From IMG/VR virus record IMGVR_UViG_3300047453_000512, positions 1 through 27,872 of that record: DNA of 27,872 nucleotides. The stretch is one strand, 5' to 3'. The notes below the pieces were generated by a model. It had not been told where the DNA came from and did not search any database. It saw only the letters and a program-made list of their open reading frames with translations. Below, piece after piece: positions 1 to 23,103 of this stretch. A program made the position numbers and the translations under genes. Each line of letters opens with the position of its first letter. Position 1 is the stretch's first letter. Source of the stretch: a virus.

Positions 1-292
1 CTGTTTGCGCACTTCCCACTGTGTTTCCATCTCCAGTTATAGTCCAATATGCTTCGTGTCCACCTTCTTCGTCTATGTCAATAGTGCCATCTACGTGCAT
101 ACCTTGACGAATTGTAATATTGTTAGAACCACCATTGCTGTTTAAACTAACATAGTTGTCCTCGCTACGCTGTTGCACTTCCAATTCAAGGTTGTCGCCT
201 GCTTGGTTTATATAGATTTCGTTACTAAAAGCCACGTTGGGAAATATTAATACTATTCCCGCCGCCCACGCCAACACGGTAGCCGTATGCAT
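1..292 (-). CDS. curlin-repeat secreted protein (partial, 3' end outside window)
   Basis: About 97 codons are visible and the frame stays open to base 1, so the C-terminus lies outside the window. The start at 292 is set by a strong AGGAGG Shine-Dalgarno at 301-306. A signal peptide (residues 1-23, ending NVAFS) is followed by NEIYINQAGDNLELEVQQ, which closely parallels the start of the mature protein encoded at 1309-2046. Later stretches such as NNITIRQG fit the loose curlin pattern of alternating residues with conserved Q, G and N. In the curli system such proteins are unfolded substrates exported through CsgG to form amyloid fibres outside the cell. The gene overlaps the 3' end of the FecR-domain gene by 68 bases in another frame. 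I infer a second curlin-like subunit (CsgA/CsgB-like); which of the two nucleates cannot be told. Confidence 0.7.
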   Translation of the reverse strand, partial: MHTATVLAWAAGIVLIFPNVAFSNEIYINQAGDNLELEVQQRSEDNYVSLNSNGGSNNITIRQGMHVDGTIDIDEEGGHEAYWTITGDGNTVGSAQT

Positions 293-1343
293 AGAAGCCC
301 TCCTGTTCCATATCTATATTATATCCATAACCTTGATCCAATGTAAGTTGGAATATGTGTTGATCGCCTTCTTGCCTACGCACTATAAAATTAGGATAAT
401 TTTCATCGTAAAAAATATTAGTTTCAGGGTCTAGTCCTAAAAGCTTTACATCTAATAATTCTTGGTTTTGTACAGAAAGTTCGTCAATCCACTGTGCTAG
501 TATTTCTGCCAACTGTCTCTCCATTTCGTCAATCCACACAGGATTCAAGTAAGTCATATTATCCAAATCTGTAACCCAAATACTTTTTATATTTTCAACT
601 AAAGGATCTCTATCTAACTCGTCAAAATTTAAAAAGTCAATGTCTAATAAATTTGTATTTGGATAGGTTTTGGTTATTTCTTCTGTGTAAGGTGAAACTT
701 TACGTACAAGCAACATTGCTGTAAGCATATTCTCAGGTAAATCTAATATTACACTTGGGCCTGGAGTTGCACCTCTATGTGGCACCACAGTGGTTTGATA
801 AGCTTGATTCATTATAATTTGACCAACATCTGATTCTACTGATATTTCTCCTATAACACAAGAACCACTAGCGTCACAACTTGGTAACAGTGTTATCATT
901 GATCCACCTACTTCGTCAATAATCATCATAAAGTCTGTGCCTCGCACGTTTATTGTAGCACTTGGTGTTCTTATATTCACTCTTTGTCTGCTATTCTTTG
1001 CTATTTGTCCTGATGCATATCTAACTGCTCCTAGTGTGGCTTTCATACTCAGCGCACCAGTTTTTGTGTTGGGATCATATATAAATTCGTCTATGGTCAT
1101 ACGTGAATGTTCTGTTACATCAACACGAGTGTCATCTATAAAGTCCATACGCATTGAACCTTTGCCTGTAACGATCCTATCGTTCATTTCAAGACCAAGT
1201 CCTACTTCGCCAGTGTATTTTTCTGCTTCACGCTGAATTGTGCTAGAACCTTTATGTTCTGCTATTTTGCCAATATTTGCATACACTGGGGTTGTTAGTA
1301 ATAATGCACTAATCAGACTGCGTAATATCAACGTCTTGTCCAT
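225..1343 (-). CDS. secreted FecR-domain protein
   Basis: A 372-residue protein. The start at MDKTLILRSL gives a clean signal peptide ending at PVYA; an ATG 18 bases upstream (1361) is possible but would put a polar stretch before the signal. Residues about 25-150 match the FecR domain: a KGS..I.R region, a D-R-I-x-T-G-KGS-M-R-F-like strand pattern and the IRTPSATINVRGTDF core. The C-terminal 180 residues are acidic and unfamiliar, and end in GGGNSINISQRGF, which resembles a curlin half-repeat. FecR domains are classically periplasmic signal transducers for iron uptake, but here there is no sigma factor or TonB receptor and the protein sits between two curlin-like genes. I infer a role in fibre assembly or anchoring. 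It overlaps both neighbours, suggesting translational coupling. Confidence 0.75.
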   Translation of the reverse strand: MDKTLILRSLISALLLTTPVYANIGKIAEHKGSSTIQREAEKYTGEVGLGLEMNDRIVTGKGSMRMDFIDDTRVDVTEHSRMTIDEFIYDPNTKTGALSMKATLGAVRYASGQIAKNSRQRVNIRTPSATINVRGTDFMMIIDEVGGSMITLLPSCDASGSCVIGEISVESDVGQIIMNQAYQTTVVPHRGATPGPSVILDLPENMLTAMLLVRKVSPYTEEITKTYPNTNLLDIDFLNFDELDRDPLVENIKSIWVTDLDNMTYLNPVWIDEMERQLAEILAQWIDELSVQNQELLDVKLLGLDPETNIFYDENYPNFIVRRQEGDQHIFQLTLDQGYGYNIDMEQEGFYAYGYRVGVGGGNSINISQRGF

Positions 1344-2046
1344 CGCCTGAGAATGTAGCATCTACTGTGTTATCTTTTACACCACTTTGTTTAATTTTGT
1401 AGTTGCTGCCGCCGCCGGTGATATCTAGTGTTACACTGTGTCCTGCGCTGTCTCCATCGCCGTCTTGATCTATTTCGACTAACACACCGCCTTGTTCTGT
1501 TGTGTAAGTTGATGATGAGTCTGAGGTTGTAGCTGACGAAAGTGTAGAATTATTGTCTATTGTAACATTGACTACCGCACTTGTGCCGTCAACTTCTGTG
1601 ATCAATATGCTTCCGTCGCCCTCTACTGTAAAATCAATTTGCGCTCCGTCTGCATCTGCTGTTTCACCAATTTCTAAATAATACTTGTTGGTATCTCCTG
1701 TAGTTGCAATATTCAGTGTGACGTTTTCACAGTTTACACCTGAGGTATTATCGCAGACTAAATCAACAAAATTGTTGTTGCCTGTAAAAGTCCAAGTACC
1801 AGTATATGTATTACCTTTTATTTTTGCATCAATTATGTTTGCATTACCTGTTTGAGTAATACTAAAAGTCATATCATCGCCATCAAGCATTGCGTCGGTG
1901 GTTGAATCACCAAATTCGTTGTCAGTCCCATCTTGTGTAATATCTAAATCAAGGGTGTCACCTATTTGTGTAATGTAAATCTCGTTTGCATTTGCTGCAC
2001 TTACGAGAACCAATGATAGGATGAACCCATATAATATTGCCCTCAT
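1309..2046 (-). CDS. curlin-repeat secreted protein
   Basis: A 245-residue protein beginning MRAILYGFILSLVLVSAANA, a clear signal peptide. The start is fixed by GGAGGTGG at about 2053-2060; an in-frame upstream start at 2073 would add charged residues. The mature part is rich in G, D, N, T and S, very poor in hydrophobics, and has irregular repeats of the form I-x-Q-x-G-x-x-x-x-(I/L) (IYITQIGDTLDLDITQDG, FSITQTGNANI, YKIKQSGVKDNTV, VDITQ at the end). These fit the curlin repeat family, although more diverged than E. coli CsgA. One Cys pair occurs near residues 105-113. It is first in the minus-strand transcript starting at the TATAAATA box at 2077-2084. I infer a structural subunit secreted through the CsgG/CsgF pore encoded next door. 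Confidence 0.75.
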   Translation of the reverse strand: MRAILYGFILSLVLVSAANANEIYITQIGDTLDLDITQDGTDNEFGDSTTDAMLDGDDMTFSITQTGNANIIDAKIKGNTYTGTWTFTGNNNFVDLVCDNTSGVNCENVTLNIATTGDTNKYYLEIGETADADGAQIDFTVEGDGSILITEVDGTSAVVNVTIDNNSTLSSATTSDSSSTYTTEQGGVLVEIDQDGDGDSAGHSVTLDITGGGSNYKIKQSGVKDNTVDATFSGDGQDVDITQSD

Positions 2047-2076
2047 ATTTTTCCACCTCCGGCTTTTAGCCAAATA

Positions 2077-2107
2077 TATTTATAATATGTTGATATTATT
2101 ATAAATA
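2077..2107. promoter_or_regulatory. divergent T4-type late promoters in a perfect inverted repeat
   Basis: Two TATAAATA boxes point outwards: minus strand at 2077-2084, toward the curlin-repeat gene (start 2046), and plus strand at 2100-2107, toward the Fis-like gene (start 2153). They lie in exact 11-base inverted arms, TATTTATAATA (2077-2087) and TATTATAAATA (2097-2107), separated by 9 bases. TATAAATA is the consensus recognised by the T4 gp55-type late sigma factor. Distances to the starts fit a start site 6-8 bases downstream of each box. Inference: coupled late expression, possibly with an operator function for the repeat. Confidence 0.7.
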
Positions 2108-2152
2108 CAATGTTATTTAGTGTAAATATTTTTACAGTAAAGCGGGTATATA

Positions 2153-2422
2153 ATGAAACTAAATACAGTTATGATGGCATTAAAACAAGCAGAAAAAAAT
2201 CATAAAGAACAGCAGGCCTTTTGGGATGTATTTGACGAGATATGGCCGCCCGAAGAAAGACAAGATGATAAATGTTTGCACCAAGAAGTAGACGATTTTA
2301 TAATAGATAGGATTGCAGCGGCTCTAAAAGAGTGCAATCACAATCGCACACACACTGCTGATAAGTTAGGAATAAAAAGAGAAACCTTATTGGCTAAGAT
2401 GAAGAAGTACTGTCTTGTTTAA
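2153..2422 (+). CDS. Fis-type helix-turn-helix DNA-binding protein
   Basis: An 89-residue protein and the only convincing plus-strand gene here. The C-terminal 45 residues (IIDRIAAALKECNHNRTHTADKLGIKRETLLAKMKKY) have the HTH_8/Fis pattern: a helix ending in hydrophobics, then the N-x-T-x-A-A-x-x-L-G-I-x-R-x-T-L-x-x-K-hydrophobic turn shared by Fis and NtrC-type regulators. The N-terminal half is acidic and unfamiliar (FWDVFDEIWPPEE) and could be a partner-binding segment. There is no AAA+ domain, so it is not an NtrC activator. It is transcribed away from the curlin genes from the plus-strand TATAAATA box and its 3' end runs 29 bases into the 3' end of csgG. The placement suggests it controls the curli block; that is inference. 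Confidence 0.75.
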   Translation: MKLNTVMMALKQAEKNHKEQQAFWDVFDEIWPPEERQDDKCLHQEVDDFIIDRIAAALKECNHNRTHTADKLGIKRETLLAKMKKYCLV

Positions 2423-3194
2423 ATTTCCATAGATTTTGTGCAGCACCTTGATAAATCATTTCAATTACTGCGGCCTCGATGGCTTGACGCACGGCATAAT
2501 TTGATGCTTCATTTACACTATATCCAGTTTCGATTTCTAATGCTTGTGTACCTAAATCAAAAAACTTGAATGCGTTTGCACCTTGTCTGTAACTAGCAAT
2601 TGATTTTTCTGCTGCTACGCTTACCAATACACGACCTGTGCTTACGCTTACAAGACGCATTGCAACTGTCACAGTATCAACTCTATATTCTACCGCAGTA
2701 CCGATTCCCATATACATAGCACCATTGCCGCCTGTAGAAATATTACTGTCATATCCTATAATACCGCCTTCTAGTAATATACCTGCAAATTTCATAGGTG
2801 ATAGAGAAACTTCTTTTTCACCATAGTTTTCCCTTGTATTGCGTATAACCTGACGTTCTTTGATCACGTGATCCATTCCACCTCGTTCTACAACTTCAAA
2901 CCAAGTACCGTTGCCTGCTTGCAATAGTGCATCTATTACCCAAACTTCTGCACCTTGTGTAACTGCACTACTCAAGTTTGAAATACTTTCAGAGGGTTTA
3001 CGTTGCCCTGTTTTATCTGCAAACTCATAAACACCTACTGTCATTACAGGACCATCCAATGGCTGAAGTTTATTTAATTCTTCTACCATTGGATTATCCT
3101 GCACTTTTGCAGCATTTTGCAGCATAGTTGGAACTTCTCCTTGTGTTGCACAACCTGCAACAAATAACATTGCTAATATTGCTATAAATTTCAA
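2394..3194 (-). CDS. csgG: CsgG-type outer-membrane curli secretion lipoprotein
   Basis: A 266-residue protein matching CsgG. The signal peptide has a lipobox FVAGC with the lipidated Cys at residue 15, which predicts anchoring in the outer membrane. Family landmarks visible: VGVYEFADKTGQRKPSES, the run SAVTQGAEVWVIDALLQA, WFEVVERGGMDHVIKERQ and IRNTRENY, all aligned with the E. coli order. CsgG forms a nonameric pore that secretes curlin subunits. The start codon appears to be TTG at 3194, overlapping the csgF stop as TTGA; the only nearby ATG would cut the signal peptide, so TTG and translational coupling are the better reading. The 3' end converges with the Fis-like gene. Full length relative to E. 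coli CsgG (277). No CsgE-like plug gene is visible in the window. Confidence 0.9.
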   Translation of the reverse strand: MKFIAILAMLFVAGCATQGEVPTMLQNAAKVQDNPMVEELNKLQPLDGPVMTVGVYEFADKTGQRKPSESISNLSSAVTQGAEVWVIDALLQAGNGTWFEVVERGGMDHVIKERQVIRNTRENYGEKEVSLSPMKFAGILLEGGIIGYDSNISTGGNGAMYMGIGTAVEYRVDTVTVAMRLVSVSTGRVLVSVAAEKSIASYRQGANAFKFFDLGTQALEIETGYSVNEASNYAVRQAIEAAVIEMIYQGAAQNLWKFKQDSTSSS

Positions 3195-3664
3195 AAGTTA
3201 AATTCCCCCATTCCTGGTATCACTATTTCCGTGTAGCCATCTGGACCATCGATAATAAGTGTTATACTTCCTGTGACTTCATCTTTGCTCCAAGCAATTT
3301 CTGCTCCTTCAACTTCTGTGGTTCCTGAATTAGAACACGCAGGCTGATCATCTGCTCCGCAGGCTGCAAACATATTGTCAACTAACTGTTTACTAAGTGT
3401 AGCATATATACGTGATTCTAAGTTACGGATAAACTTATTAAGCACCGTGTTTTCAAGTTCACGCTCAATGCGTTCTGCTTCACGTTCCGCATCTTTTCTG
3501 ATATCTTCTTTACGATTAAAAGTAAGTTGTTCAAGGCTCAACATATGAGCACTGTAGCCTTGTCCTGTAAATGTAGGAGATTTAAAATTGTGTACTAAAT
3601 CGCCGCTGGCTACTCCGGGGGTAACCATTAATATGAAAAAAATAATTTTAAAATAATATTGCAT
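3191..3664 (-). CDS. csgF: CsgF-type curli pore accessory protein
   Basis: A 157-residue protein with signal peptide MQYYFKIIFFILMVTPGVAS. The mature N-terminus GDLVHNFKSPTFTGQGYSAH matches the CsgF N-terminus (G-x-L-V/F-x-F-x-N-P-x-F-G-G-x), the segment known to insert into the CsgG channel. The rest has an Arg/Glu-rich helix (residues about 55-85) and a C-terminal beta segment ending TEIVIPGMGEFNF, also typical of CsgF. A Cys pair is near residues 100-108. No good Shine-Dalgarno precedes 3664; a longer reading from 3733 is possible but would bury the signal peptide. An AATAAATA sequence at 3670-3677 is too close to the start to be a normal promoter. Its stop overlaps the csgG TTG start, consistent with a CsgF-CsgG complex. 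Confidence 0.8.
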   Translation of the reverse strand: MQYYFKIIFFILMVTPGVASGDLVHNFKSPTFTGQGYSAHMLSLEQLTFNRKEDIRKDAEREAERIERELENTVLNKFIRNLESRIYATLSKQLVDNMFAACGADDQPACSNSGTTEVEGAEIAWSKDEVTGSITLIIDGPDGYTEIVIPGMGEFNF

Positions 3665-3696: not shown

Positions 3697-4767
3697 TTAA
3701 ATCATTGCTTTGTTTAAAGTAAGTTGAGCCCATTGTTCTCGGCCAGCACCTGCTTGTGTTGGTATAACACTGATTGATAAGCCGCCTGCGTGTCCGCCTG
3801 TTCTGAATGCTTGTAAATCTGCTGCATTTTTTAGCATTGCAGTTTTTTGATTAGGAATACTCATTAGCAATAGTGCATCAAAGTCGTCTCTATTTTTATA
3901 CCATTCAAAGTTTGCAGCCAAATAAGCTAGTTCAACTTGTGCTGTGTCTTCAGTTGTTGCAATTTTATCTGCAACTGATGCAGCATAATTCTCCATATCC
4001 ATTTGCAGTAAATCAAGCATTAATGCTTTTCTTACCTTTTGGTTTTCTGGAACATTTGTAGGAAGGTCTTGATTTAAAGCAGCCATAAAAGGTCCTAGTC
4101 CGAGACTTCCGCCTTTTTGTCCAATGGCTCCAATTACTGACGGTATTTTTTCTTCATACTTTTGTAGGACTGCACGTTTTGCTTTTTGACTTCCGCCACC
4201 GTAACCGATACGTCCACCACTAGAACTCATAGCTGCTTTAAGTTCTACTTTCCCAATTCCATCTATTTCTAAATCGCCTTCGCCTTGTGCAAGTCTAATT
4301 TTGTTTGATAAACAGGCTAGTCCATATTCGCCTGGACCTTTTTGTTTTTTACCTACACCATATGCTGCTAATTTTCTAAAAGCTGCACCTCCGGCTTCGT
4401 CTCCAAACACTGCGCTAAAGGTATTGAGTGGCTTTGACAGAGATGTAATATCTACTACGCCGCCGCCTTCTAATCTTTTAAGAAGAGCGCTCATTGTTTT
4501 ATAATCGCTTTCGATTGTACTAAAAATTTTAGTCATATCTTGGCGCACTAGTAACTTTTCTTTTTGACCCATATTTTCATCTTGAAGAGGAATATCAAAA
4601 GCATTGTCAATGTTACTACTAATAGTACCACTGTTAAGTATTTTCCATATTCTATCTAATAAATTAGCTTCATCTTGATTATCTGCCGACAATCCGGATA
4701 TAGTTGATATAATTTGATCTTTTTCTTGACTTAAGTCTGTGTATTCAACAAGGTCTTTATAACGCAT
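3697..4767 (-). CDS. putative PD-(D/E)XK nuclease-fold protein
   Basis: A 356-residue soluble protein I cannot name. The centre carries a pattern like the PD-(D/E)XK nuclease core: GPGEYGLA with Glu147 on a helix, then GDLEIDG with Asp165, then VELKAA with Glu175 and Lys177, followed by a Gly/Ser-rich SSSGGRIGYGG turn. The E...D...ExK order and spacing match the restriction-endonuclease-like fold. The N-terminal 130 and C-terminal 150 residues are helical and unfamiliar, with no signal peptide or membrane segment. Related proteins in large myoviruses may be annotated as structural or hypothetical, so packaging, recombination or host-DNA degradation are all possible. It lies between pcyX and csgF, with its 3' end near the csgF leader. 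The fold call is inference from four residues and their spacing. Confidence 0.5.
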   Translation of the reverse strand: MRYKDLVEYTDLSQEKDQIISTISGLSADNQDEANLLDRIWKILNSGTISSNIDNAFDIPLQDENMGQKEKLLVRQDMTKIFSTIESDYKTMSALLKRLEGGGVVDITSLSKPLNTFSAVFGDEAGGAAFRKLAAYGVGKKQKGPGEYGLACLSNKIRLAQGEGDLEIDGIGKVELKAAMSSSGGRIGYGGGSQKAKRAVLQKYEEKIPSVIGAIGQKGGSLGLGPFMAALNQDLPTNVPENQKVRKALMLDLLQMDMENYAASVADKIATTEDTAQVELAYLAANFEWYKNRDDFDALLLMSIPNQKTAMLKNAADLQAFRTGGHAGGLSISVIPTQAGAGREQWAQLTLNKAMI

Positions 4768-4788: not shown

Positions 4789-5475
4789 TTAGTCAATGTC
4801 AGGGAATAAACATTCCTGTACGAATACTCGTACATCCTCTTCGTCGAGTCCTAAACTGGTCATTGTTTTAGGAGTGTGCGGATTTTGTTTTTGATAATGT
4901 GCATAACGATTCTGTGCTGTTTTTACTTCGTCTGTATCTGCTGTATGATTATGATTACCAATGTCTGTAAGATAAGCATCTACACTGTCTAAACTCAACT
5001 CTAACAGTTGATCAAGTTCTTCACGTTTGTTCACATTGCCTGCTGCTACCATATGCGGTGAGAAGATTGCTTGAGCCCATTCAGGTAGTTCACGTTCTTT
5101 GCGCCATTCAAGTTTGCTTACTTCGTCACCAAATGCTTCAATCATTGGATGATCGGCATCTATAGTTCTACTGTAGTCGTGGAAGAACCCTGTAATTTTA
5201 TTTTTACCAGCAATAACATCTAGTCCAAAAACAGGACCGTTATTGTCTAGTCTTGGAAAAACACAACAATGCATCATCCACAAACCTTTGGTTTCACGCA
5301 CATCCACAACATCAATGTGTGCTCTACGATAGCTGTCACTTTGCCATACTCTGTTTAACCAACCAGGCTGATTGAATCTATCCATTCCTGGCTCTTGTAT
5401 TTCTGTACCCGTAGCGTCAAATGCATCAATTAACCTGTCTTGTATTTCTATTAAGGTTTCCCAAACTTCACTCAT
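4789..5475 (-). CDS. pcyX: ferredoxin-dependent bilin reductase, PcyX-like
   Basis: A 228-residue member of the PcyA/PebS family, which reduces biliverdin with electrons from ferredoxin. The family core is clear: YRRAHIDVVDVRETKGLWMM, then VFPRLDNNGPVFGLDVIAGK, then KITGFFHDYSRT. Asp86 in FGLD matches the catalytic Asp of PcyA/PebS. The short N-terminus and the pairing with a heme oxygenase fit the phage PcyX group known from marine metagenomes and assigned to phages of heterotrophs; PcyX is reported to make phycoerythrobilin by four-electron reduction. The gene overlaps ho1 by 8 bases, so the two are likely co-translated. The role in a non-cyanobacterial host is unknown. PebS or PcyA activity cannot be excluded from sequence alone. 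Confidence 0.85.
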   Translation of the reverse strand: MSEVWETLIEIQDRLIDAFDATGTEIQEPGMDRFNQPGWLNRVWQSDSYRRAHIDVVDVRETKGLWMMHCCVFPRLDNNGPVFGLDVIAGKNKITGFFHDYSRTIDADHPMIEAFGDEVSKLEWRKERELPEWAQAIFSPHMVAAGNVNKREELDQLLELSLDSVDAYLTDIGNHNHTADTDEVKTAQNRYAHYQKQNPHTPKTMTSLGLDEEDVRVFVQECLFPDID

Positions 5476-5995
5476 TATTTAATTCCTCAAACAATTTGGT
5501 TGCATATTTAAAACAAATATTTGCTTCCTCTGCCATTTCGTCATCCAACACAGTACGAACTTTTATTTTAAGGTCTTCGACATTATCAAAATCATACATA
5601 ACACCTTTTGTAAATGGAATACGTTTTTTAATCATTTGACCTCCATACATATCTCCAAAGTGTCTAACATAAACGTGGGCCATTAGTTCATCACTATCAA
5701 GTGTAGGAAGGTAATTAATATAATCTACAGCACTAGGTTTTAGTTTATCTTTTGTTCTTTTAAAACCATATTCGTGTTCTAATTCTTTTAAATCAATACT
5801 AATGCGTTTGGCTCTGCGTATGTCTTCAATGCCGTCTAAGTCAGCTAATGATTCAAGAGAACCGTAGATAATAAATTGATTGTACAAGTAGGTGTGATAT
5901 TGTTCAGGAGTAATACCATTCATAAGTTTCCTGGCAAATGCTGTTCTTTCAGCATTTTGATGATTCTCCCAAGTAAGTTCTTTAAGTTTGCTCAT
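5468..5995 (-). CDS. ho1: heme oxygenase (biliverdin-forming)
   Basis: A 175-residue heme oxygenase that opens heme to biliverdin IX-alpha, CO and iron. The proximal heme ligand is His12 (TWENHQNAE). The distal helix has the flexible glycine motif GDMYGGQ at residues 114-120, preceded by YVRHF. At 175 residues it is shorter than bacterial or cyanobacterial HO (about 210-240) because the C-terminal extension is missing, as in other phage HO proteins. Its product is the substrate of the bilin reductase encoded 8 bases inside its 3' end. It overlaps the clpS stop as ATGA (5992-5995), so clpS-ho1-pcyX read as one operon. Electrons are expected from ferredoxin. Confidence 0.93.
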   Translation of the reverse strand: MSKLKELTWENHQNAERTAFARKLMNGITPEQYHTYLYNQFIIYGSLESLADLDGIEDIRRAKRISIDLKELEHEYGFKRTKDKLKPSAVDYINYLPTLDSDELMAHVYVRHFGDMYGGQMIKKRIPFTKGVMYDFDNVEDLKIKVRTVLDDEMAEEANICFKYATKLFEELNNE

Positions 5996-6294
5996 TCTTC
6001 CTCAATTTTTACATTTAGCTGAAACCCATTTTGCCTTGCTAAATTTACAGTTTCCGTAGCTTTTTGTTCTGCTATTTCGTAACTATATATACCTGCAACT
6101 CCGCTTCCTTCTTCGTGAATTTGAATGGTTAAAGCAGAAGCAGTTTCAAAAGAGTGTTTGAATATTTCTTGTAAAATACTTACAACAAAATCCATTGGTG
6201 TTTTATCATCATTAAGGAAAATGACTTTGCAATCCTTAGGTTCTGAAATATCAATTTCAATTTTTTCGTCAATTACTACATCAGTTTTATTCAT
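5992..6294 (-). CDS. clpS: ClpS adaptor for ClpAP (N-degron recognition)
   Basis: A 100-residue ClpS. The domain runs from about residue 20: VIFLNDDKTPMDFVVSILQEIF, with the Asn28-Asp29-Asp30 and Thr32 pocket residues, and His60 in the second helix, all of which line the N-degron pocket in bacterial ClpS. The C-terminus (YEIAEQKATETVNLARQNGFQL) also fits. ClpS hands substrates with destabilising N-terminal residues to ClpA(P) and blocks ssrA-tagged substrates at ClpA. That is notable because this phage also encodes its own ssrA tag. Start supported by AGGAGAAAAAT. It follows the terminator-like hairpin at 6309-6331. Confidence 0.92.
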   Translation of the reverse strand: MNKTDVVIDEKIEIDISEPKDCKVIFLNDDKTPMDFVVSILQEIFKHSFETASALTIQIHEEGSGVAGIYSYEIAEQKATETVNLARQNGFQLNVKIEEE

Positions 6295-10807: not shown

Positions 10808-11290
10808 TCACTCCCACCGGTAGAATATATGCGCACCTATCCTACCTACTAATTGTAGTGTCTTTGCCCAACGTGGAGACACATATGTAGCGTGATAATG
10901 TGTTGCGCCTTCGGTAATGCCACGATATTTGTCAAACTTAATTATTCCCCAAGCAATCATTTGTGCTTCAGCCCAACGATCTTGATCCTGTGGATTATCT
11001 GACTTACCATCACAGTACCAGCTAAATTGGCAATTCTTTTTTCCTTTTTTATATCCATCGTGTACAACATCACAAATTGTGTTTGGATAGCGGCTGTCAT
11101 TTACTCGATTTAAAACCACATCTGCCACTGCTGCTTTATCGGCAAGATTACTCCCTCTTGCTTCATAATAAACATTTAGAGCTAGACAATGTTCTTGAGG
11201 ATGAGAGCCAAAGTCAAATAAGTTATTTTGTGCTTCTGCTTCTACACTAGATGCAGCCAGCAAAAAAACTGCTGTTAAAAATTTTTTCAT
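10808..11290 (-). CDS. SleB/CwlJ-like cell wall hydrolase with signal peptide (endolysin candidate)
   Basis: A 160-residue protein: signal peptide MKKFLTAVFLLAASSVEAEA, then the Hydrolase_2 (SleB/CwlJ) domain. Landmarks are LNVYYEARG with the catalytic Glu43, KAAVADVVLNRV, CQFSWYCDG and GATHYHATYVSPRWA. This family cleaves peptidoglycan in the glycan strand. A signal peptide would let the enzyme reach the periplasm by Sec, without a holin, so it can act as an exported lysin. It sits directly beside the membrane coiled-coil protein with a PG-binding-like motif, 12 bases apart. No holin or spanin is recognisable in the window. Four Cys residues suggest disulfides after export. Confidence 0.88.
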   Translation of the reverse strand: MKKFLTAVFLLAASSVEAEAQNNLFDFGSHPQEHCLALNVYYEARGSNLADKAAVADVVLNRVNDSRYPNTICDVVHDGYKKGKKNCQFSWYCDGKSDNPQDQDRWAEAQMIAWGIIKFDKYRGITEGATHYHATYVSPRWAKTLQLVGRIGAHIFYRWE

Positions 11291-14832: not shown

Positions 14833-15624
14833 TTAGAATGAAAATCCAACTGATACTGATGGAGTTAATTCTTCTTTATCGATATTATAGTTCACTCCGC
14901 CTTCGAGCTCAGCGCCACCTAGCAACATAGTATATTCACCACCGATATTTTGTAGTGCGTCATCTTGATCACCGTTTGTGTATGCTGTTAAACCACCAAG
15001 TCCTGCTGTACCTTCGTATGCAAATTTACTCGCATCCATATCATATGACATAGCGCCGCCTAATACTGCTCCGCCAAAAGCAAAGTCGCTTACACCGCCG
15101 CCGATTACTGTGTTTTCACTGTCCAGGTTATAATCTAATGCGCCTGTAACACTTGCAATACCTGCGTCTACAGTGTATGCACCTTGCACGTTACTGATAT
15201 CTGTTACATCAGTTGTCCAATCAGTAAAACCAAGTGCTACACTTGCTGCACCTGCTGTAACTTTAACAGATTCAGTCATAACTGGCGCTGTCAATGTGTG
15301 ATTGCCTTCTGCATCTGGCATTACACCGTTGTCGTCGCCAATTGCAATTCCAACACTATTTACAGTTGTACCAACTGTCCAATTGTCTAGTGTAATTGAA
15401 CCGCCGTCTACTGCACTTAAATCTAGATCAACAGTTGCCAATCCACTAGCATTGATATCTAAATCAAGTGCCATTGCACCACCCCATTTGTCTGTGGTTG
15501 CATTTTCTGAGAATGTTAACTCAACTTCGCCTGATAGTGTCGGTCCCGATACTACTGCTGGCGCTTCAGCAAATGCCGCTCCCGCGACGAACATTGCTGC
15601 TATTGTGGTAAATACGTTACGCAT
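14833..15624 (-). CDS. phage-encoded beta-barrel outer-membrane (porin-like) protein
   Basis: A 263-residue protein starting MRNVFTTIAAMFVAGAAFA, with AAGGAA 8-9 bases upstream of 15624; a longer in-frame start at 15663 lacks this. After signal cleavage the chain is Gly/Ala/Thr/Asp rich with alternating hydrophobic residues typical of amphipathic beta strands (SVALGFTDW, SVTGALDYNL, LGGAMSYDMD, LEGGVNYNID). It ends SVSVGFSF, with the C-terminal Phe used by BAM to insert outer-membrane barrels. The size fits a 12-14 strand barrel. Phages rarely carry such proteins; possible roles are changing host permeability, masking a receptor or excluding rival phages. It is flanked by a strong terminator and a stem-loop leader, suggesting high, separate expression. 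Confidence 0.75.
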   Translation of the reverse strand: MRNVFTTIAAMFVAGAAFAEAPAVVSGPTLSGEVELTFSENATTDKWGGAMALDLDINASGLATVDLDLSAVDGGSITLDNWTVGTTVNSVGIAIGDDNGVMPDAEGNHTLTAPVMTESVKVTAGAASVALGFTDWTTDVTDISNVQGAYTVDAGIASVTGALDYNLDSENTVIGGGVSDFAFGGAVLGGAMSYDMDASKFAYEGTAGLGGLTAYTNGDQDDALQNIGGEYTMLLGGAELEGGVNYNIDKEELTPSVSVGFSF

Positions 15625-15661
15625 AATAATTTCCTTCTTTTTTGTTATGTGTTCATAAAGC

Positions 15662-15704
15662 AAAGGGCAAGTTCGACGCTTGCCCTTTCGCTGTGTTATT
15701 TATT
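15662..15704 (-). promoter_or_regulatory. stem-loop leader and AATAAATA box upstream of the outer-membrane protein gene
   Basis: A perfect 10-bp inverted repeat AAAGGGCAAG/CTTGCCCTTT with a 7-base loop spans 15662-15688. Immediately upstream on the minus strand is AATAAATA (15697-15704), a one-base variant of the late box, so transcripts would begin almost at the hairpin. It could be the terminator of the cupredoxin gene, but there is no U-tract after it; a 5' mRNA-stabilising stem is at least as likely. Confidence 0.55.
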
Positions 15705-15769
15705 ACAAGCGTTGCTGTGAGTGCAACATTTTGTTATAATCTGAAATTTATGTTGTTTTTATGCAACAT

Positions 15770-16198
15770 CTATAGATCAGCCAGTAATGCTTTCATTTTC
15801 TTTTTAGACTTGCCACGCATTTTCATATCAGTGATTGCATCTAAATTAGATGTATCGTCACCAACGACTACCATTGCAATCATTCCCATTGATTTGTGTG
15901 GGGTACATTGGTATAGGTAAATGCCTGGAGCATCAAATGTAATAGCAACTTCTTTACCATTCTTTGATTTCTTAGGTGCATCCCAGCCATCTGGACCTGC
16001 AATAAATTCTACATTGTGACCTTTTGAAGTTGGTACCCAAGTAATTGTATCGCCTACATCGATACGAGCAATGTCTTCGGAGTAAACCATTTTAGCTCCG
16101 TCGTCACGTTTGTTTAACATTTCAATTGTTGTGTCTGCGGCTAGTGCTGGTGTCGCCATAACTGCAAGCAATCCTAGTGTAGTCAATAGTTTAATCAT
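15770..16198 (-). CDS. pseudoazurin-type blue copper protein
   Basis: A 142-residue cupredoxin. Signal peptide MIKLLTTLGLLAVMATPALA directs it to the periplasm. Copper ligands fit pseudoazurin: His61 (KGHNVEF), Cys98, His101 and Met106 in YQCTPHKSMGM, with C+3 His and C+8 Met spacing. The C-terminal extension (MRGKSKKKMKALLADL) matches the helical tail of pseudoazurins rather than plastocyanin, which ends near the last strand. Pseudoazurins carry electrons between periplasmic redox enzymes such as bc1 and terminal oxidases or reductases. Cyanophage plastocyanins are known; a pseudoazurin-like version fits a heterotrophic host. Shine-Dalgarno AAAAGGAAAAA before 16198. Confidence 0.85.
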   Translation of the reverse strand: MIKLLTTLGLLAVMATPALAADTTIEMLNKRDDGAKMVYSEDIARIDVGDTITWVPTSKGHNVEFIAGPDGWDAPKKSKNGKEVAITFDAPGIYLYQCTPHKSMGMIAMVVVGDDTSNLDAITDMKMRGKSKKKMKALLADL

Positions 16199-18401: not shown

Positions 18402-19313
18402 CTATATAGTATTTTTTTCCTGTATAAAATTATTGTAATTACTAATTCTAAATGTAATTCTATGTAACACACGTTCAGCAAGTATTTCTGGATCGTTTTG
18501 ATCACGCTTATGTAAAGTTAATAATTGATCCATTAACACAATATCTCCTGGTTCGTACCAATGCTGATAAATGTATTTGTCTTGGAACATATGATCATAT
18601 AAACGTTGAAACAGTGTTTCGTCTTGTGTAATTATTTTACATTTATTGTTAGTGTAAAAGTAAATGCCTTTGACACCTGCGATGTTTTGTTGGAGCAACC
18701 ACATTTTATAAGGACCATCTTCGCCGTCCTTTTTCATCATTTTGTACTGTGTTTCGTTTAGTCCTTTTGCCCAAACCTCTGGTGTATAGCTATATTCACA
18801 ATGCACACCTTCTAATTCTTTTTTAAAGTCATCATCTAAATCATTGTATGCTAGATTTGTATTCAAATAACTTGTGCTAGTATTTTCACAACCTTCGTAA
18901 CCTTGTAGTGCTACACCATCAGCACGATCCAATCCGTTTAAGTTGGCGTGCCAATCTAAAATACCACTGCTGAATATACCAGTTGTAATACCTTTTTTAT
19001 TTTTTTTACCTGTCGTTCTTTGTATAGGATATAGTTCTTTGTCTTTATCCCATTTGTCAGTGTTAGGAGGAGTCTTACCAATATAAAACTCCCCTTCTTT
19101 TGTATAAATCATTTGTCTGTAGTTAGCAACTGTGCCTATACGTTCCACAAAATTAACAAACCAATATGGTAATCTTTCTTGATGCTTTAATACAACTATT
19201 AAGTCTTTGCGTAAGATATTTTTTATTTTATCAGCATCACTATCACTTAAATTTGTAATGTCAACATTATTAATTTGTGTAGCTACACCGTTTAAACTTT
19301 CTACTTGCATCAT
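18402..19313 (-). CDS. TauD-like 2-oxoglutarate/Fe(II) oxygenase
   Basis: A 303-residue protein of the TauD/TfdA superfamily. WHANLNG (His122) sits where the first iron ligand lies; LLTLHKRD gives the second His (His268), and Arg285 in RVLHRITF is placed to bind 2-oxoglutarate. The fingerprint GVALQGYEGCENTSTSYLNT between them is typical of the core. The usual HxD motif reads H-A-N here: Asn124 replaces the acidic ligand, which could change iron binding or chemistry (some halogenases have HxA). The substrate is unknown. Its start overlaps the phosphoribosyltransferase stop as ATGA. Confidence 0.75.
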   Translation of the reverse strand: MMQVESLNGVATQINNVDITNLSDSDADKIKNILRKDLIVVLKHQERLPYWFVNFVERIGTVANYRQMIYTKEGEFYIGKTPPNTDKWDKDKELYPIQRTTGKKNKKGITTGIFSSGILDWHANLNGLDRADGVALQGYEGCENTSTSYLNTNLAYNDLDDDFKKELEGVHCEYSYTPEVWAKGLNETQYKMMKKDGEDGPYKMWLLQQNIAGVKGIYFYTNNKCKIITQDETLFQRLYDHMFQDKYIYQHWYEPGDIVLMDQLLTLHKRDQNDPEILAERVLHRITFRISNYNNFIQEKNTI

Positions 19314-21556: not shown

Positions 21557-21579
21557 ACAATTCTCCCTTGTTTTGGAAT

Positions 21580-21863
21580 GAGGCCCGTTCTGTTGCTAGG
21601 TGGAACCCATACCCCGCATACCTAATTAGGCTGCAATTGCCATTGCTGGCGCACGATTGTCATTTGCAATTGTGAATGTTGACCAATAACGCAGTCATCC
21701 GGTAAACTCCACTTCACTTTCACACCTGTCGATCCTAGTTCAGCCCCATCATAATTACTCTATGCCGTAAATTTGTAGTTTTTACGCTACAAAGTAATTA
21801 TGGTGGAGCTGCCGGGTACTGCCCCCGGGTCCAGTATGCGTTCACGTTGCTTCAACGTCTACA
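21580..21863 (-). ncRNA. ssrA: circularly permuted (two-piece) tmRNA, ssrA
   Basis: The gene is arranged acceptor piece first (about 21863-21801), then a loop to be removed (21800-21748), then the coding piece (21747 to about 21580), as in alphaproteobacteria. The acceptor piece ends CAGCTCCACCA with the CCA encoded; its CAGCTCC pairs (one G-U) with GGGGCTG, the first seven bases of the coding piece. A CCGGG/CCCGG T-stem with a 7-base loop precedes it. The coding piece begins GGGGCTGAACTAGGATCGAC, like tmRNA 5' ends. The tag frame (21667 to 21626) starts at a GCA resume codon and gives ANDNRAPAMAIAA then TAA, which matches alphaproteobacterial tags (AND...AA). The loop folds by inverted repeats TAATTACT/AGTAATTA and TTTGTAG/CTACAAA. 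The 3' boundary and exact processing sites are estimated. Confidence 0.93.
21748..21800 (-). other. intervening segment of the permuted tmRNA
   Basis: These 53 bases separate the encoded CCA (21801-21803) from the first G of the coding piece. Nested inverted repeats at its ends (ATAATTACT and AGTAATTAT) and inside (TTTGTAG and CTACAAA) would hold both RNA ends close for RNase processing. It should be missing from the mature two-piece RNA. Confidence 0.8.
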
Positions 21864-21866
21864 GTC

Positions 21867-21897
21867 TATTTATAACATAGATTTAAGCTTGTGTCAA
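21867..21897 (-). promoter_or_regulatory. fused sigma70/late promoter of the tmRNA gene
   Basis: Minus strand TTGACA (21892-21897), 17 bases, TATAAA (21869-21874); extending the -10 gives TATAAATA at 21867-21874, an exact T4-type late box. A start 6-8 bases downstream falls at about 21861, where the acceptor piece begins. One DNA element thus fits both the host sigma70 and phage late sigma factor. Confidence 0.8.
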
Positions 21898-21905
21898 CAG
21901 ACAAG

Positions 21906-22350: not shown

Positions 22351-23103
22351 TTAATTAGACTTTATAAGTTCGATAACAGTGGCACTAGGGTCAACGGTTC
22401 CAAACCTGTATCTATACGGAGTTTTATGATGACTACCGTGATATAGTAAGTCAAACCAGCATAGTAAATATTTTGCCTTATCCCAATCTTGTACCTCACC
22501 GTACCAATGTCCCCAAGTATTAACTATTGAAGATTGAGTTAATACCAGTATACAATGAAAACAATACAATGAAAATAAAATTGGTGAAATGAAGAACAAA
22601 CCAAGTAACACACAAACATTTATTAAGATATAGTAATCAGTAGTAAATTTCATTAATTTAGAACGTTTGTACAATAAACCGTAACTTAATTCTTGTAATT
22701 TTTTATCTTTTGGTGTAGGCCAAATAAACCAACCTACAAAAAATGCGCCTATTCTTCCGTAAATTTTTGGAGAATGAGGATCTCCATCTTTGTCACTAAA
22801 TTTATGATGAGTGGTATGTGAAGAAACCCAAACAGGTATAGGACCAGCACCGGATAATGTTGATAAGAAGACTAATGTATAATGCCAAAATTTATTAGTT
22901 TTAAAAGATTGATGAGTAAAATATCGATGATATCCAACACTTGTTGAAAATAGGGCTAATAAATATGCAATTAATATTAATAAAATACAGACTATAAGTG
23001 GAAGTATGTAAAAAGAATATATTATTCCTATTATTGCAGGTATATGTATTACCCACAAATGTATATAATTTTTTTGTATAGTTTGAACATTAGAGTTTTT
23101 CAT
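22351..23103 (-). CDS. membrane acyl desaturase (delta-9/stearoyl-CoA desaturase type)
   Basis: A 250-residue membrane desaturase with three His boxes: His59-RYFTH64, His96-TTHH100 and His222-GSHH226, plus DPHSP and NTWGHW, as in fatty acyl-CoA/delta-9 desaturases. Four membrane helices are expected, with the diiron site on the cytoplasmic side. The enzyme inserts a double bond using O2 and reduced ferredoxin or cytochrome b5. It could make host membranes more fluid at low temperature or during virion release. The gene is notably AT-rich compared with its neighbours. CATAAATA lies 5-12 bases before the ATG, too close to drive this gene normally; it may be coupled to the gene at 23111. Desaturases are known in some marine phages. 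Confidence 0.88.
   Translation of the reverse strand: MKNSNVQTIQKNYIHLWVIHIPAIIGIIYSFYILPLIVCILLILIAYLLALFSTSVGYHRYFTHQSFKTNKFWHYTLVFLSTLSGAGPIPVWVSSHTTHHKFSDKDGDPHSPKIYGRIGAFFVGWFIWPTPKDKKLQELSYGLLYKRSKLMKFTTDYYILINVCVLLGLFFISPILFSLYCFHCILVLTQSSIVNTWGHWYGEVQDWDKAKYLLCWFDLLYHGSHHKTPYRYRFGTVDPSATVIELIKSN

Follow-up and report, generated by a model that had tools for sequence, protein, structure and literature searches.

The window analysed here, a 27,872-base stretch (37% GC) of the IMG/VR virus record IMGVR_UViG_3300047453_000512, begins with a cluster of curli-type genes at positions 1-3664. The cluster is part of a real, conserved and probably functional curli-type export module, and we consider it rather probable, judging from gene content and structural models, that it is a type VIII (curli-type) secretion module of a T4-like marine phage which exports surface fibres from infected cells. 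In the proposed mechanism, the Sec pathway would carry two curlin-repeat proteins (curlin 1 and curlin 2) and a FecR-domain protein to the periplasm; CsgG and CsgF would form a channel in the outer membrane, by way of which the curlin-repeat proteins would exit and stack into fibres on the cell surface. The core of the module (csgF, csgG, the curlins, FecR and a cyclase) has already been published, and the module of the window belongs to a phage family known from the literature.

Both pore genes are located on the minus strand. CsgG (2394-3194, 266 amino acids), the predicted outer-membrane secretion pore lipoprotein, was matched by PF03783 with 165 bits. The CsgF homologue, a predicted pore accessory of 157 amino acids (3191-3664; the reading frame is also open to an ATG at 3733), was matched by PF10614 with 36.3 bits and by phrog_35372 with 152 bits. 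The curated Pfam cut-offs are 20.8 and 25.8 bits for PF03783 and PF10614, respectively, and 20.7 and 24 bits for Curlin_rpt and PF04773. The CsgG profile matched PDB CsgG chains at E 3e-61 over positions 5-266 without a large gap, and its alignment covered the whole barrel region of E. coli CsgG. The lipobox reads LFVAGC, and the lipobox pattern was found in 54 of the 58 viral CsgG homologues.

Curlin 1 (1309-2046, minus strand, 245 amino acids) has a signal peptide and a Curlin_rpt match of 23.9 bits. At an E-value of 0.01, Curlin_rpt matched 32 of the 43 aligned members of the family, in whose alignment Q27, Q38 and Q65 are invariant. The AlphaFold2 (AF2) model built with these 43 sequences consists of all-beta repeats in which each stretch of about 22-25 residues contributes two strands (predicted local distance difference test score, pLDDT, 82.8; predicted template modelling score 0.78). 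Base 1 of the window truncates curlin 2, whose N-terminal 97 amino acids (2-292, minus strand) scored 19.3 bits, just under the Curlin_rpt cut-off. A 77-kb record (L004/L084) and a 61-kb record (L006/L086) were determined to be the same phage, with CsgG and FecR proteins identical to those of the window. The complete curlin 2 of 226 amino acids (L084:11052-11732) is the same as the window fragment over the shared part and was matched by Curlin_rpt with 30.3 bits.

These matches bear out the preliminary description of this DNA, in which a phage curli-type locus with a pore, a pore accessory and two curlin-type substrates was seen, CsgG having a lipobox and the full-length order of motifs; the FecR-domain protein and the Fis-type regulator that it placed in the locus are likewise confirmed by the Pfam matches given below. 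The curlin repeats had been proposed for structure prediction, and a result inconsistent with a beta-solenoid was not obtained. The extent of the locus, given as 1-3664, stood as regards the genes present; its end at base 1 did not, as the module runs on through curlin 2 to the cyclase.

For 21 distinct loci, the sequence extended at least 9.5 kb past csgG in the downstream direction; all of these loci contained csgF, curlin 1, FecR and curlin 2, and 20 contained the cyclase. The order csgF-csgG-curlin 1-FecR-curlin 2-cyclase was nearly invariant among the relatives. The dN/dS values of the module genes, determined pairwise between the window and five close relatives wherever computable, were about 0.06-0.3, corresponding to purifying selection. 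As the substrates are kept and the dN/dS values are low, selection appears to act on the substrates and not on the pore alone. Relatives of the window CsgG were found on 415 viral contigs, so the system is widespread.

Several results weigh against fibre export. CsgE (PF10627), which the preliminary description had also not seen, was not found in the search past base 1, nor over the cut-off in any of 27 long records, among which were the genomes of two cultured phages; therefore the channel would either have no gate or be closed by a different component. Of the components of a curli type VIII system, CsgG, CsgF and the signal-peptide curlin substrates were found and the CsgE gate was not. The preliminary description had suggested that exported fibres would aggregate cells or trap virions, or that the pore would weaken the outer membrane before lysis. 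The phage Melnitz did not cause clumping in culture, though it carries the same module (PMC9004378). The Foldseek search with the curlin 1 model gave no significant match, many of the non-significant ones being beta-solenoids, and the CsgA fibril 8enq stood at rank 36 of the list with an E-value of 4.5. The absence of CsgE and of clumping would both be expected if the ungated CsgG/CsgF channel had been repurposed to depolarise or weaken the envelope and to help in timing lysis (PMC9004378), or to import nutrients, the curlins being vestigial or acting as a plug. The constriction loop of the phage CsgG, KPSESISNL, also lacks the aromatic residues of the E. coli loop KPYPASNF. However, a similar loop without these aromatics is present in a cellular alphaproteobacterial csgG which lies beside curlin genes (L214), and the window has a separate cell-wall hydrolase (Hydrolase_2; 10808-11290), a candidate endolysin located apart from the curli genes. 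The retention of both curlins and FecR in every one of the 21 loci under purifying selection would be unexpected if only the pore mattered. We therefore regard a repurposed pore as unlikely and favour fibre export over a bare lysis pore, because the substrates, FecR and the cyclase are kept in nearly every relative at such low dN/dS values. The likely benefit would be that the fibres retain cells or progeny in the vicinity of new hosts, or obstruct competing phages. If made, the fibres would be a surface structure which the streamlined planktonic host otherwise lacks, and among very abundant marine bacteria they could alter how cells aggregate, how often they meet and how genes are exchanged.

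Homologues of csgF and csgG were described in pelagimyophages in 2020 together with the idea of sibling capture (PMC7029224), and in Melnitz together with the idea of a lysis regulator (PMC9004378); the preliminary description was thus correct in noting such homologues in some marine phages. Its extra point, the presence of candidate fibre subunits, is not new, because curlins, FecR and cyclase are already published: genes of the csgA/B type, FecR and a cyclase were reported in podo- and myophages in 2022, with CsgE absent (PMC9599517), and the GenBank records of HTVC008M and Melnitz annotate fibre subunits in the same gene order as in the window. The type VIII modules of the pelagimyophage and methylophage (HTVC008M gp14-19; Melnitz-3 EXVC039M_99-104) share the order csgF-csgG-curlin-FecR-curlin-CHASE2 cyclase, and their CsgG and FecR proteins are 46-49% and 43% identical to those of the window, respectively. 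In contrast to these two phages, the window lineage has an antisense HTH_8 gene and a palindrome between csgG and curlin 1, 115- and 635-amino-acid proteins encoded in the interval from curlin 2 to the cyclase, and an adjoining heme oxygenase-bilin reductase-ClpS cassette. The HTVC008M curlin 2 (L003 10576-11901) has a PA14 domain ahead of its curlin repeats, which suggests a binding domain on the fibre.

The HTVC023P-type podovirus system shares csgF, csgG, curlin and FecR with the window, a second curlin and the cyclase are frequent in it, and CsgE is missing (PMC9599517). The gene order given there for pelagiphages, csgF-csgG-curlin-FecR-(curlin)-(cyclase) without CsgE, was found also in the window lineage. 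For the HTVC023P-type system, one or two histidine kinases are reported to precede csgF and CHASE2 is not mentioned, whereas the open reading frame ahead of the window csgF (3697-4767) had no kinase match. Pairs of membrane/coiled-coil proteins of about 93-117 amino acids were observed at module edges (L084 18580-18933 and 19112-19414; L003 6838-7400; L213 366-934), those of L084 and L003 belonging to phrog_18771. No kinase domain was detected in these proteins, and they may be the "histidine kinases" of PMC9599517. With the E. coli csgBAC-csgDEFG system the phage module has in common the CsgG pore, CsgF and the curlin-repeat substrates; in contrast to E. coli, CsgE was not found, CsgC and CsgD are not among the annotated module genes, and a cyclase, FecR and HTH_8 are present instead.

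The FecR-domain protein (225-1343, minus strand, 372 amino acids) was matched by PF04773 with 32 bits, and the same family was detected in all 37 members scanned. The protein is of an exported type: in the AF2 model, a signal-peptide-like helix (residues 3-16) is followed by the FecR domain (25-188), and a linker modelled with low confidence (212-299) leads to a C-terminal all-beta domain (residues 301-372; 228-443 of the window, minus strand), which was modelled with a pLDDT of about 80-87 over most of its length and ends in a curlin-like repeat. In PMC9599517 FecR is called an iron-dependent regulator, and as a signalling regulator it would respond to iron or citrate and, jointly with the cyclase, control the genes for secretion. 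The presence of PF04773 throughout the family and the Foldseek matches of the model to 4m0n and PupR (6ovk), periplasmic FecR domains of anti-sigma regulators, agree with such a role, as does the proximity of cellular FecR genes to CHASE2-cyclase-like genes. However, no cytoplasmic anti-sigma region was seen in the protein, a hydrophobic segment after the N-terminus, and with it an inner transmembrane helix, is absent in 41 of 42 FecR homologues, and no gene for an extracytoplasmic function sigma factor (FecI) was present among the module proteins scanned. The cell-surface anchoring domain 5ix9 was also matched by the model (TMt 0.74); the E-values of the matches to 4m0n, PupR and 5ix9 were 0.001-0.008. 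The curlin-like tail, moreover, is specific to the curli-linked proteins, and a role in iron signalling is considered improbable.

Two invariant residues of the tail, Q347 and Q369, are spaced by 22, which equals the curlin period well established for CsgA. The terminal motif was found in 41 of 42 viral FecR homologues and 51 of 52 curlin 1 proteins, compared with 1 of 78 cellular FecR proteins away from csgG (viral vs cellular FecR, Fisher p 8e-30, uncorrected for relatedness). The scores of the tail with two curlin profiles in hhalign exceeded those of all 100 column permutations, and in a divergent relative (L217) the tail, VIFIQDGKSNVVRVNGGSDSTIKITQ, is a near-canonical curlin unit (QDGxxN). 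Two results speak against a curlin-like repeat in this position: Pfam Curlin_rpt matched none of the 37 FecR proteins, and the curlin-unit hidden Markov model matched 9 of 42 single sequences at E 0.05, not significantly more than about 7-9% of the shuffled ones. The case for a cap therefore rests on the profile, spacing and distribution evidence. These two negative results and the shortness of the motif would also be expected from convergence, since any exported beta-domain whose end consists of alternating hydrophobic residues and glutamines would look alike. Convergence is a possibility that we take seriously without holding it probable, as the near restriction of the motif to viral homologues, the glutamines one curlin period apart and the permutation results all run counter to it.

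Because of the C-terminal curlin-like repeat and a FecR domain resembling periplasmic or surface-anchoring domains, the FecR protein would most likely be a fibre-associated cap, nucleator or anchor, a role which appears to fit the sequence and the model better than that of an iron regulator. The sequence search of the PDB with the FecR profile gave no meaningful match, and nothing directly useful was found in the literature on FecR with CHASE2 or on FecR with adhesin retention. The exported type of the protein, the lack of the anti-sigma region and the curlin-like tail appear to be unreported before. If this reinterpretation is true, the iron-regulation reading leaves the literature and the missing nucleator or anchor is supplied.

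Past base 1, the two longer records continue with curlin 2 and with a 115-amino-acid protein that was partially matched by a PHROG carrying the annotation PagP. Next come a 635-amino-acid protein, the start of which resembles a signal peptide, and two small proteins, and then a CHASE2-adenylate cyclase and an alpha/beta hydrolase. The cyclase (L084 15294-17339, 681 amino acids) was matched by the Pfam CHASE2 and cyclase families with 126 and 69 bits, respectively. The motifs FSDLRGFT, IKYIGD and SYDVLGD, which contain the metal-binding Asp and the adenine-selecting Lys/Asp, are present. With a periplasmic sensor and a cytoplasmic cyclase domain, the protein would probably couple the state of the envelope to cAMP. 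A point against this part of the scheme is the replacement of the Asn of the catalytic GDxVNxAAR motif by Ser in 31 of 38 phage CHASE2 cyclases; the smaller HTVC008M-like cyclases retain the Asn.

The putative regulator of the window lineage (2153-2422, plus strand, 89 amino acids) is encoded antisense between csgG and curlin 1 and is of the Fis/NtrC C-terminal type (HTH_8, PF02954, 40.7 bits; HTH, helix-turn-helix). Among the relatives its gene lies either in this gap, as in the window lineage, or in another set upstream of csgF. The palindrome TGTAAATATTTTTACA (2121-2136, no strand assigned) occurs as a single copy in the window, and within the window alone it is not above chance. In both gene positions a palindrome of the form TGTWA-N6-TWACA lies in the gap between the HTH gene and the module, mostly followed by the T4-late-like NATAAATA. 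The palindrome was present in the module promoter of 18 of 20 loci with the HTH gene compared with 1 of 40 loci without it. Since it travels with the HTH gene and is a single copy in the window, it is likely to be the operator of the HTH protein. The T4-late-type promoter core TATAAATA points at curlin 1 (2077-2084, minus strand) and, divergently, at the HTH gene (2100-2107, plus strand), and of 8 relatives with the HTH gene between csgG and curlin 1, 7 have NATAAATA in the corresponding position. The window contains 5 copies of TATAAATA against 3.7 expected, which is not above chance, and matches to NATAAATA are likewise not enriched; the claim of late promoters therefore relies on position and conservation. 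In the window lineage, the HTH protein bound to the palindrome between the divergent late-type promoters would probably control the fibre genes. The pair would be a direct and testable switch of the module and as such appears to be unreported before. The combined proposal, in which FecR would be a fibre component with a terminal curlin rung (cap, nucleator or anchor) reporting the state of the fibre to the CHASE2 cyclase, and a dedicated Fis/NtrC-type regulator-operator pair would time fibre expression to late infection, is put forward only tentatively.

In cellular alphaproteobacterial curli operons (L214-L216), csgF-csgG are followed by curlin-repeat genes, as in the phage, and the 19 kb covered in each of these three genomes showed neither a FecR-domain protein nor a cyclase. 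Cellular FecR/CHASE2-cyclase loci, including those of SAR11, contain neighbours of the same families as the phage module with no csgG or curlin beside them, and their FecR lacks the curlin-like tail. Such neighbours without csgG were detected within 1.5 kb in 23 of 74 loci, SAR11 single-cell genomes included; L119, L145 and other loci of Pelagibacteraceae are of this kind, and the FecR domain was confirmed by Pfam in two SAR11 examples. These cellular pairs without csgG appear to be an unreported point. As the curli operons lack FecR and cyclase and the FecR/cyclase pairs lack csgG, the phage module has the appearance of a curli operon that was combined with a FecR/CHASE2-cyclase pair, a suggestion drawn from few cellular operons. 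Among 147 genomes of the SAR11 family, two CsgG matches were obtained, both on short contigs (23 kb and 15 kb) with the phage-type module. The bacterial contigs with the phage-type module (L101-L106), mostly from bins of metagenome-assembled genomes, were handled as probable phage contigs and are no proof of a cellular version.

Directly upstream of the curli module, genes for a bilin reductase, a heme oxygenase and ClpS occupy 4789-6294, and this cassette recurs in many related loci. Similar phage enzymes are known (PcyX); a link between the bilin reductase cassette and the curli locus was not found in a limited literature check. A permuted tmRNA gene of the Alphaproteobacteria type is located at 21577-21901, and Melnitz likewise carries a phage tmRNA. 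Genes for an exported porin-like protein, a plastocyanin-type copper protein, a TauD-type dioxygenase and a fatty acid desaturase were observed at 14833-16198, 18402-19313 and 22351-23103.

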